Source of the DNA: an uncultured Alphaproteobacteria bacterium
GTDB lineage: Bacteria > Pseudomonadota > Alphaproteobacteria > HIMB59 > GCA-002718135
Reading direction: 5' to 3'
DNA: 64,000 nucleotides
Assembly: GCA_902627245.1 (NCBI GenBank)
Contig: CACOIH010000004.1
Location: 1-64,000, forward strand
Every line of letters begins with the position of its first letter. Within the stretch, counting starts at the first letter, position 1. Under the pieces are notes generated by a model. It ran no database searches and had not been told where the DNA came from. It saw only the letters and a list, made by a program, of their open reading frames with translations. Of this stretch, positions 26,739 through 40,857 are shown in pieces. The position numbers and the translations under genes are program-made.

Positions 26739-27890
26739 ATGACTAAGCTTTATGATTTATTTATTATAGGAGGTGGGATTAATGGAGCTGGAATAGCTAG
26801 AGACGCAAGTGGAAGAGGTTTTAGTGTTTATTTAGCTGATAAAGGAAAAGTTGGCTCTGCTACATCATCATGGTCCTCTAAATTAATTCATGGTGGTCTT
26901 CGCTACCTTGAGAATTATGAATTCAAACTTGTAAGACAGTCCTTAAAGGAAAGAGAAGTAATTACAAAAATTGCACCAAATATAACAAAACCATTACCAT
27001 TCGTAATTCCTCATTCGAAACAATCAAGATCTAAATTATTAATAAAATTGGGACTTTTTTTATACGATAATATTGGAGGTAAAACAAATATACCAAAATC
27101 CTCTAAAATAGATTTAAAAAAAAATTACATAAATATTTTAAAACCGCAATTTTCTTTTGGCTTTAAATACTACGATGTTCAGGTAGATGATAAAAAATTA
27201 GTGGAAATGAATATAGAAAATGCAAAAAATTTAGGCGCAGTTATTGCAGAAAATAAAAAGGTAATAAATGCAAAGATTGATAATGATAGCTGGAAAATTC
27301 TTTTTGAAGATAAAGAAACAGTTAGAGCAAAAATTTTAATAAATGCTTCAGGTCCATGGATTAATGAAACAATAAATAATGTAATTAATATAAGTATAAA
27401 TAAATCAATAAGACTTGTGAGAGGGAGCCATATTATAGTAAAAAAATTATATGATGAAGAGGTTGCTTTCACTTTACAGAATTATGATAATAGAATTGTT
27501 TTTGTTATTCCTCATAAAAAGGACTATACTTTAATTGGCACTACAGAGGTAGATGTGGATAATCCAGAAAATCCAACTATTTCAGATAGTGAAAAAAAAT
27601 ATTTAATAAATTCAGTTAATAATCATTTCATTAAAAATATAACAAACGAAGATATTGTTAAAACATATTCAGGAATTAGGCCTTTAATAGAAGATTTTAA
27701 AGAGGCTTCTAAAGTAACTAGAGATTATATATTTGATCTAAATCTACAAAATAAACAAGCGCCACTATTAAATATTTATGGTGGTAAACTTACTACATAT
27801 AGAAAATTATCTGAAAAAGTAATTGAGCAACTTGAGCCCTTTTTACCAATTAAAAACACAAGGAATTGGACTCATTTAAAAAAACTATAA
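26739..27890 (+). CDS. glpD: FAD-dependent glycerol-3-phosphate dehydrogenase, lacking the C-terminal domain
   Basis: LFIIGGGINGAGIARDASGRG, SSKLIHGGLRYLENYEFKLVRQSLKER, GPWINE, YGGKLTTYRKLSE; ends shortly after the last motif (383 aa; E. coli GlpD is about 500 aa). Confidence 0.82.
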   Translation: MTKLYDLFIIGGGINGAGIARDASGRGFSVYLADKGKVGSATSSWSSKLIHGGLRYLENYEFKLVRQSLKEREVITKIAPNITKPLPFVIPHSKQSRSKLLIKLGLFLYDNIGGKTNIPKSSKIDLKKNYINILKPQFSFGFKYYDVQVDDKKLVEMNIENAKNLGAVIAENKKVINAKIDNDSWKILFEDKETVRAKILINASGPWINETINNVINISINKSIRLVRGSHIIVKKLYDEEVAFTLQNYDNRIVFVIPHKKDYTLIGTTEVDVDNPENPTISDSEKKYLINSVNNHFIKNITNEDIVKTYSGIRPLIEDFKEASKVTRDYIFDLNLQNKQAPLLNIYGGKLTTYRKLSEKVIEQLEPFLPIKNTRNWTHLKKL

Positions 27891-27894
27891 TAAA

Positions 27895-27949
27895 TATTCC
27901 TCTTACACAACTTTTCATTATAGGGCAGAAAAGTTTTATAAGAGGAATA
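27895..27949 (+). ncRNA. orphan long hairpin with possible loop-to-downstream pseudoknot
   Basis: TATTCCTCTTA (27895-27905) pairs perfectly with TAAGAGGAATA (27939-27949); inner AACTTTTC (27909-27916) with GAAAAGTT (27928-27935); apical GGGCA complementary to TGCCC at 27983-27987. Confidence 0.5.
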
Positions 27950-27970
27950 CTTCTCATAGGAGGAAATAAT

Positions 27971-28000
27971 ATGAAAACCTTCTGCCCATTAGTATTATAA
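27971..28000 (+). CDS. 9-codon ORF MKTFCPLVL behind a near-consensus SD
   Basis: AGGAGG at 27958-27963, ATG at 27971, TAA at 27998; codons 4-6 lie in the sequence complementary to the upstream hairpin loop. Confidence 0.2.
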   Translation: MKTFCPLVL

Positions 28001-28030
28001 ATTATTATTTAATATTAACTAATTAAGCTC

Positions 28031-28044
28031 TCAAAACGCTTTGG
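28031..28044. promoter_or_regulatory. weak candidate LacI-family operator
   Basis: TCAAAACGCTTTGG, 12/14 identical to the CCAAAACGTTTTGG palindrome at 39774-39787. Confidence 0.3.
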
Positions 28045-28046
28045 AA

Positions 28047-28067
28047 ATGCCCCATTTTATGGGGCAT
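28047..28067. terminator. bidirectional stem-loop
   Basis: ATGCCCCA-TTTTA-TGGGGCAT. Confidence 0.65.
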
Positions 28068-28084
28068 ATTAATTAACGATTCTA

Positions 28085-29191
28085 CTATTTAAAAGCCTGT
28101 TGTGAACTATCAAATAGATGGCATCTATTAGATGGAAATCCAACTTTGACAGTATCACCGACTTTGATATTTGAATGTCCTTCAGTTTCAACAACTAAAG
28201 GTTCTCCTTCTTTTTCTAGATATAAGAAAGTTCCAGAACCTAATTTTTCAACAACGAACACTTTACTTTCCCATGTTCCATCGGAATCCTGATTCACTAA
28301 TAGATGCTCTGGCCTAATACCCAGCGTTACAGAGTCACCATCTGAAGAGGAAGCTGACATTTTTGGAACTGCAATTTTTGACGCACCCATTATATCGACT
28401 TCAGTTTTGTCACCACTTTTTGAAGTTATTTTAGATGAAATAAAATTCATTTTTGGTGAACCAATAAACCCTCCCACAAACATATTATTTGGTTTGTCGT
28501 AAAGTTCTAGAGGCGAACCTTTTTGTGATACGATACCTGTGTCTAATACTACAATATCATCTGCAAGTGTCATAGCTTCAGTTTGATCATGAGTAACGTA
28601 AATCATTGTTGCCTCAAGTTCATTATGAAGTTTTGCTAACTCAACCCTCATTTGAACTCTTAATGCAGCATCTAAATTTGATAGTGGTTCATCAAATAGA
28701 AAAACTTTAGGTTTTCTTGTAATGGCCCTTCCAATAGCAACTCTTTGTCTTTGACCACCTGACAATTGTTTTGGTTTTCTTTTTAAATAGTCTTCAATTT
28801 GTAATATTCTTGCGGCTTCATTTACTCTTTCATTAATTTCATCCTTTGACCTTTTTTCTAACTTTAAACCAAATGCCATATTATCAAAAACTGTCATATG
28901 TGGGTAAAGAGCATAAGATTGGAATACCATCGCTATGTTTCTTTGTTTAGGGGGCAAGTCGTTAACTACCTTACCATCTATTGAAATAGTCCCTGAGTTT
29001 ATATCTTCTAATCCCGCAATCATTCTAAGCATAGTTGATTTACCACAACCACTTGGTCCAACTAAAACTGTAAATGATTGACTTTTAATGTCTAGAGATA
29101 CGTCCTTAATAACGTGGACATCTCCAAAGTATTTATTAACAGTATTTATATTTATATCTGCCACTTCATCCTCCTTTGAGCGATCTTTCAA
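28085..29191 (-). CDS. CUT1-type ABC transporter ATP-binding protein (UgpC/MsmK/AglK-like)
   Basis: GPSGCGKSTMLRMIAGLE, LSGGQRQRVAIGRAI, LFDEPLSNLDA, YVTHDQTEAMTLADDI, C-terminal MalK-like TOBE region. Confidence 0.9.
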   Translation of the reverse strand: MKDRSKEDEVADININTVNKYFGDVHVIKDVSLDIKSQSFTVLVGPSGCGKSTMLRMIAGLEDINSGTISIDGKVVNDLPPKQRNIAMVFQSYALYPHMTVFDNMAFGLKLEKRSKDEINERVNEAARILQIEDYLKRKPKQLSGGQRQRVAIGRAITRKPKVFLFDEPLSNLDAALRVQMRVELAKLHNELEATMIYVTHDQTEAMTLADDIVVLDTGIVSQKGSPLELYDKPNNMFVGGFIGSPKMNFISSKITSKSGDKTEVDIMGASKIAVPKMSASSSDGDSVTLGIRPEHLLVNQDSDGTWESKVFVVEKLGSGTFLYLEKEGEPLVVETEGHSNIKVGDTVKVGFPSNRCHLFDSSQQAFK

Positions 29192-33373: not shown

Positions 33374-33387
33374 CCGAAACGTTTTGG
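33374..33387. promoter_or_regulatory. candidate LacI-family operator
   Basis: CCGAAACGTTTTGG, 13/14 identical to the palindrome at 39774-39787; about 45 nt upstream of the SBP start. Confidence 0.6.
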
Positions 33388-39773: not shown

Positions 39774-39787
39774 CCAAAACGTTTTGG
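39774..39787. promoter_or_regulatory. candidate LacI-family operator
   Basis: CCAAAACGTTTTGG perfect palindrome (ACCAAAACGTTTTGGT 39773-39788) in the divergent SBP/LacI intergenic region. Confidence 0.75.
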
Positions 39788-39837
39788 TTGTCAATTTTTC
39801 TTTATAATCAATGGTTAATAAGTTATGCATAAAATTC

Positions 39838-40857
39838 ATGAATATAAAGCAATTGGCTAAAAAACTAGATTTATCAATAACCACTGTTTCAAGGGCTTTA
39901 GGTGGTTATTCAGATGTTAGCGAAAAAACTAGAAAAAGAGTAAAAAAATTTGCATTAAAATACAGTTATAGTCCCAATCCTTATGCAAGTGTTCTAGCTT
40001 CTGGGAAAACAAAGACTGTAGGGTATGTCCTTCCGATATACGGACTAAATACTAGCACATTGAACCAAGCTAACTTTTTCCAATTTATTTCAGGTATGTC
40101 TGATGCGCTATTATCCGAAAGTATTCAATTACAGATTTTATTTGCAAAAAGTGAAAATGAGGAAATTGAGTCTTATAAAAAATTAATTTTAGAACAAAAA
40201 ATCGAAAATATTGTCCTACAAAATATTAAAACTAAAGATAGACGTATTAATTTACTTAATAAATATAAAGTTAATTATGTGGCTTGGGGAAAAACTAAAT
40301 CTAATAACAATTTTTCATGGGTAGATTTAGATAATGCAGGTGCTATTGAAACTATAGTAAATTATTTAATTAAAAAAAAACACAAACATATTTCTTATAT
40401 TAACATTTCTGAAAAATATAACTTTGCCAGTGAACGAAAAAATTCTTTTTTAGAAGTATTAAAAAAAAATCATATAATCTTTAATAAAAATTATTATGCT
40501 TCTGTAAGATTAGAGGAACCTGAGAAAAGTTTTGAGGTAATTAAAGAAATGTTGTTAAAAAATAAAAAAATATCAGCAATAATATGTTCTACTGAGTTTT
40601 CAGCACTAAGCGCGATTAAGGCGTGTAATTCTTTAAATTTAAAAATAGGACATGATATTTCAATAATAACATTCGATGGTCCCTTGGTTAGAGATTTAAG
40701 TACACCACCATTGACCGCTGTATCATTTCCGGTCAAAGAGCTTGGTAAAAAAGCAATTAATATACTTTTAAATAGGGATAAAAATCAAAATAAAATGGAA
40801 AATTTTCTCGCTAATGTTGAAATTATAGAAAGAGGATCAGTACATACATGCAAATAA
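39838..40857 (+). CDS. LacI family transcriptional regulator
   Basis: NIKQLAKKLDLSITTVSRALGGYSDVSEKTRKRV HTH plus LacI C-terminal domain; ORF track starts upstream at 39811, MNIKQ at 39838 preferred. Confidence 0.88.
   Translation: MNIKQLAKKLDLSITTVSRALGGYSDVSEKTRKRVKKFALKYSYSPNPYASVLASGKTKTVGYVLPIYGLNTSTLNQANFFQFISGMSDALLSESIQLQILFAKSENEEIESYKKLILEQKIENIVLQNIKTKDRRINLLNKYKVNYVAWGKTKSNNNFSWVDLDNAGAIETIVNYLIKKKHKHISYINISEKYNFASERKNSFLEVLKKNHIIFNKNYYASVRLEEPEKSFEVIKEMLLKNKKISAIICSTEFSALSAIKACNSLNLKIGHDISIITFDGPLVRDLSTPPLTAVSFPVKELGKKAINILLNRDKNQNKMENFLANVEIIERGSVHTCK

Follow-up and report, generated by a model that had tools for sequence, protein, structure and literature searches.

In oligotrophic bacterioplankton, few proteins are typically more abundant than the substrate-binding proteins (SBPs) of ABC transporters, and regulation is generally considered sparse in streamlined genomes. 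In enterobacteria, a global repressor of the mRNAs of such proteins is GcvB, a Hfq-dependent RNA of about 200 nt encoded beside gcvA, which acts via one single-stranded, G/U-rich stretch. The LhrC RNAs of Listeria (Firmicutes), which are multicopy and of a different structure, pair through pyrimidine-rich UCCC motifs with ribosome-binding sites (RBSs), including that of oppA. In the Rhizobiales, AbcR1 and AbcR2 (alpha-r15) are trans-acting sRNAs of 114-121 nt with two anti-Shine-Dalgarno (anti-SD) motifs, CUCCUCCC and UUCCCCUC, and these motifs pair with the ribosome-binding sites of periplasmic SBP mRNAs (PMC8844928, PMC3712013). NfeR1 of S. meliloti is an sRNA of 115 nt whose anti-SD motifs are directed at SBP mRNAs, and in contrast to AbcR1/2 it has been described as an RNA that does not interact with Hfq (PMC8844928).

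The window analysed here is the whole 64,000-nt stretch of DNA from an uncultured alphaproteobacterium. Judged from sequence comparison, its minus strand between positions 27987 and 27878 very probably harbours the gene of a trans-acting sRNA, about 110 nt long, that has a promoter and an intrinsic terminator of its own and would repress the translation of SBP mRNAs. A preliminary description had placed an orphan riboswitch- or sRNA-like element on the plus strand at 27891-28067, behind a truncated glpD. Its hairpins were all confirmed, as were its AGGAGG site and the complementarity of the loop: an outer 11-bp stem (27895-27905/27939-27949), an inner 8-bp stem (27909-27916/27928-27935) with the loop GGGCA, AGGAGG at 27958-27963, ATG at 27971 and TTCTGCCC at 27980-27987. 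For the plus strand the folding energy is -45 kcal/mol; 200 dinucleotide shuffles average -28 (sd 3.55), and none of them was as low (z -4.79).

Its assignment to glpD did not hold, since the association is with ugpC, on the opposite strand. Using 27885-28075 as a BLASTN query, the element was found in 44 of the 61 genomes of the genus, many of which are single-cell genomes only 55-75% complete. Scanning the GTDB genomes for the pattern gave 73 records, partly repeating the same genomes and titled uncultured Alphaproteobacteria or Pelagibacteraceae, and nearly all of them carry the element between glpD and ugpC. By BLASTN or covariance model, the RNA is present in about 80 genomes of the genus (g1) and, within the same family, in the genera g3, g4, g5 and, more weakly, g7. 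It always lies about 100 nt behind ugpC, which encodes a sugar ABC transporter ATPase (28085-29191, minus strand), and on the strand of this gene. The plus-strand glpD (26739-27890), which is convergent with the sRNA gene and overlaps its 3' end, is not a conserved neighbour. In g3, g4, g5, g7 and divergent g1 genomes, the glpD side is taken by a HAD-type hydrolase gene, a dehydrogenase-like gene or others, while ugpC remains about 100 nt away; in one genome (locus L050, G032) glpD is inverted beside the sRNA. Because ugpC is kept while the glpD side changes, the element goes with ugpC and its direction is that of the minus strand. The gene glpD is not truncated either: relatives align end to end over the same 383 codons, and since this short form of 383 aa is of constant length across the genus, no local truncation has taken place. 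Beyond these genomes, the RNA is absent beside ugpC in the sister family f2, no other true member came up outside the genus when the core model was run on 386 alphaproteobacterial genomes, and the pattern is absent from the viral contigs scanned. Weak covariance-model matches in f2, among them one (L224) that is antisense to an SBP start, were rejected, as were class-wide weak matches in G169 and G400 (E 0.002-0.009), which lie inside a coding frame that is ribD-like by motifs.

The predicted sRNA gene starts at G 27987 and ends in the U-tract UUUUUUU (27878-27884), the plus strand of which forms the last glpD codons. Covariance model R1 matches 27878-27987 with 114.7 bits, the sequence itself being among the building set of the model. 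From its 5' end, the RNA consists of G(G/A)GCAGA, the near-invariant UUCAUAUUAUUUCCUCC and a long hairpin ending in U's. The putative binding site UUUUCAUAUUAUUUCCUCCU (27958-27977) would be complementary to the SD sequence, the spacer and the start codon of its targets, and this stretch is invariant in 41 distinct g1 sequences. A second conserved pyrimidine motif, GUAUUCCUCUUAU (27937-27950), with UUCCUC, lies inside the hairpin and is a possible second anti-SD. Folds and pair counts delimit the long terminator hairpin, CUAUGA...GUAUUCCUCUUAUAAAACUUUUC/GAAAAGUUGUGUAAGAGGAAUAU...UUAUAG (27885-27959), which in the 110-nt minus transcript is extended by CUAUAA/UUAUAG straight into the U-tract, although the latter is interrupted in several relatives. 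In 68 of 71 relatives the 110-nt minus transcript has a lower fold than its complement; contrary to the minus-strand reading, the plus strand has the slightly lower fold in 64 of the 71 if the 68-nt core is taken alone.

A TATAAT -10 box (27994-27999, minus strand) precedes the sRNA start by 6 nt, and this 6-nt spacer is variable in sequence between the box and the invariant G. Positions T-12, A-11, A-8 and T-7 of the box (TAnnAT) are conserved in 55-57 of 59 relatives, and at least five of the six bases of TATAAT are matched in 70 of 71 relatives, compared with 12 of 71 in a control stretch. Conservation of the -35 box is poor, and nothing was called at the sRNA locus by generic scans for promoters and terminators. 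Further upstream, 44-57 nt before the sRNA start, is an operator-like palindrome, TCAAAACGCTTTGG (28031-28044), close to CCAAAACGTTTTGG. The window contains 4 matches to such a palindrome where 0.48 would be expected, with copies at 28031-28044, at 33374-33387, preceding a ribose-type SBP gene, and at 39774-39787, flanked by a sugar SBP gene and the gene of a LacI-type regulator (39811-40857). It can hardly serve ugpC because it is sited between the ugpC stop and the sRNA. The three palindromes likely constitute a small sugar regulon, which may include the sRNA, so that in the window genome and one subclade sRNA transcription may follow sugar supply via a LacI-type operator. The feature is not universal: 20 of 117 records, as well as g5 genomes, have it within the 100 nt before the sRNA. 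In locus L051 (G015), the CCAAAACGTTTTGG palindrome is found on the 3' side of the sRNA, right behind the stem, instead of upstream.

The conserved codirectional position 3' of ugpC, together with the weak -35 box, would also be expected if an RNA of the same function were a processed 3' fragment of the ugpC mRNA and had no promoter of its own. Such processing is unlikely, since a terminator-like hairpin (28048-28066) separates ugpC from the RNA, as a clear and strong terminator does in L240, the operator-like palindrome also lies between the two, and the conserved -10 box stands exactly 6 nt ahead of the 5' end.

The presumed targets of an independently transcribed sRNA are found at SBP gene starts. 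If no more than one mismatch is allowed, 67 of 101 relatives contain the sequence GGAGGAAATAATATGAA, and its reversed control has 0 matches in the 101 genomes. All 110 site records examined, which leave out the sRNA locus and correspond to about 105 distinct places as a few were counted twice, are starts of ABC transporter SBP genes. They belong to the families SBP_bac_5, SBP_bac_3, OpuAC, Peripla_BP_5, Peripla_BP_4 and SBP_bac_1, as assigned by Pfam for representatives and by BLASTP to those for the remaining sites. In the genome that the window comes from, the start of an SBP_bac_5 (OppA-type) gene is a perfect 19-nt complement of the sRNA, giving 19 consecutive pairs. For three SBP mRNAs of this genome, the predicted interaction energies, unfolding costs included, are -19.9, -18.6 and -15.3 kcal/mol (z below -5), and those for the glpD, ugpC, clpA and ugd mRNAs are at background level. 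When the 62 ORFs of the window are ordered by duplex energy, four SBP-like genes take ranks 2, 5, 11 and 15, with start codons picked automatically and SBP labels given by eye. The first rank of the 62 is taken by the RBS of an ammonium transporter gene (7283), and 55 nt before this gene there is an Rfam glutamine riboswitch (RF01739, 7166-7228, plus strand, 39.9 bits); the transporter might be under double control by riboswitch and sRNA.

In the sRNA of g3 and g7, AUAAUUUCCUCC stands in place of AUUAUUUCCUCC, and in the genomes of each an SBP-type start reads GGAGGAAATTAT, namely that of an OppA-type SBP in G101 and that of an exported SBP-like protein, TRAP-type by sequence, in G149. Seed and target have both changed, in two genera only. 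Near-matching SBP start sites are also found in 9 of 40 genomes of f2. Since this family has them without the RNA, conservation of this RBS sequence does not have to depend on the sRNA; the SBP start consensus may be older than the sRNA, which may have adapted to it.

According to the proposed mechanism, the sRNA would pair with the SD sequence, spacer and start codon of SBP mRNAs over up to 19 consecutive bp, and this pairing would block 30S binding and lower SBP synthesis. In these bacteria, which are streamlined and probably marine, the sRNA would probably reduce nutrient uptake. It is improbable that the effect of the RNA on SBP mRNAs is instead activation or stabilisation, or that these mRNAs titrate the RNA. 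The same pairing data would fit these effects, as a sequence cannot give the sign of regulation, but both the SD sequence and the start codon would be covered, and AbcR1/2 and NfeR1 act by repression (PMC8844928); by analogy, we infer repression for the new sRNA.

The strand of the RNA can further be read from its closing pairing, in which GGGCAGA (27981-27987, minus strand) at the 5' end pairs with UCUGCCC (27923-27929) in the loop of the long hairpin. The preliminary description had noted the complementarity between the loop and TTCTGCCC and had proposed a search for homologues with covarying pairs; the closing stem does covary in relatives, and compensatory changes that preserve the pairing place the complementarity beyond chance. 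One pair shows 18 G-C, 16 A-U and 1 G-U, 97.8% of cells are paired, two-sided changes occupy 20 cells compared with 6.7 +/- 4.6 after shuffling, and the covariation score was reached by 0 of 500 shuffles. These counts were taken from alignment A4, since alignment A3 also contains mirror matches on the plus strand and, in the GAGC subclade, puts the inner helix in the wrong place. Variant pairs include GAGC/GCUC and GGUAGAGA/UCUCUACC, the latter read by eye in L218, which is misaligned in A4. Wobbles, counted from the stem-A line, amount to 13 G-U on the minus strand and 0 on the plus strand. In G032 the sRNA is without the 3' arm of the long hairpin and the closing stem runs directly into UUUUUUU. 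With the GGGCAGA/UCUGCCC pairing formed, the binding stretch would be left accessible. The fold of lowest energy has the 5' end of the sRNA paired partly with the anti-SD instead of UCUGCCC, and such alternative contacts could gate access to the binding stretch.

In the preliminary description, the same elements were taken for a plus-strand translational switch or leader, in which the loop GGGCA and TTCTGCCC compete over the SD-ATG behind glpD. The plus strand does fold well and the SD-ATG is invariant, but this conservation is explained by its being the complement of the binding site, and the wobble pairs, the -10 box and the U-tract belong to the minus strand. Furthermore, glpD is absent or inverted at the element in some relatives, and no larger plus-strand gene follows, as the description itself had stated, so that a same-strand gene downstream, as expected of a riboswitch or cis-leader, is missing; the 3' neighbour of the minus-strand RNA varies and is often convergent. 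The mini-ORF is read in three different frames (MNPLP..., MKLSA..., MKTLCP...) because the distance from ATG to CTGC is 6, 7 or 8 nt depending on the subclade, and in one genome it is reduced to ATG-TAA. Judging from these sequences, the "SD + 9-codon ORF" is the mirror image of the minus-strand binding site, conserved as the complement of a ribosome-binding site and not as a peptide. The plus-strand leader or mini-ORF was rejected on this evidence from frame, neighbourhood and strand, and we consider it very improbable. What stands of the preliminary description is a conserved structured regulatory RNA outside Rfam, with a standalone sRNA among the alternatives that it offered; its plus-strand orientation does not. 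That the element only terminates convergent transcription or read-through from ugpC, and does nothing in trans, is hardly credible: the long hairpin and U-tract are terminator-like on the minus strand, but the 5' stretch and closing stem are the most conserved parts and are kept in genera without the long hairpin arm, and the complement of the 5' stretch is found at SBP starts only.

The minus-strand sRNA was compared with known families. The preliminary description had recognised no named RNA family, and no Rfam model matches the RNA: cmscan of both strands of the whole window at the gathering threshold gave no family at the sRNA locus, and cmscan of 27600-28300 with E up to 5 gave no AbcR/alpha-r15-type sRNA match, the only Rfam matches at the locus being sub-threshold ones rejected as chance. 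No description of the sRNA was met with in a search of the open-access literature on HIMB59 and small RNA, which is weak evidence of novelty. A search for Hfq (PF17209) found none in 21 genomes of the order (G000-G012 and G061-G068), 8 of them at least 90% complete and one a 99%-complete single-contig genome; the control search found Hfq in Caulobacter and others, and most genomes of the sRNA's own genus are incomplete. Tentatively, one could imagine that in this streamlined lineage without detectable Hfq a single sRNA, under a sugar-responsive LacI-type operator, sets many SBPs at once as a carbon-supply switch, with pairing over 17-19 nt taking the place of an RNA chaperone; the substrates of these SBPs would be peptides, amino acids, glycine betaine, urea/amide and sugars. 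If a conserved sRNA acts at SBP starts, nutrient uptake in an abundant group would be subject to control at one global point.

The new sRNA resembles AbcR1/2 in its similar length, its predicted intrinsic terminator, its exposed anti-SD motif (the invariant UUUCCUCC, which lies beyond the long hairpin) and its SBP mRNA targets at the RBS, as read from sequence. It differs in that it has no Rfam covariance-model match, is located behind ugpC and not beside lsrB, occurs as a single copy and not in tandem, and has a binding stretch extending over the spacer and start codon. Moreover, AbcR binds Hfq, whereas no Hfq gene was found in the 21 genomes of the order. For an anti-SD sRNA acting on SBP mRNAs without Hfq, NfeR1 provides a precedent (PMC8844928); it has three identical anti-SD motifs, and the comparison with it is one of published descriptions. 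With LhrC, the new sRNA shares pyrimidine-rich motifs directed at RBSs and differs in copy number, host phylum and structure. The likeness to GcvB would lie in SBP repression via a single stretch, and no Rfam match links the two. By the tests made, the new sRNA is not a member of the AbcR family, although it would work like AbcR1/2, NfeR1 or GcvB. An sRNA of this kind would suggest that control of the AbcR/GcvB type has arisen again independently, probably without Hfq.
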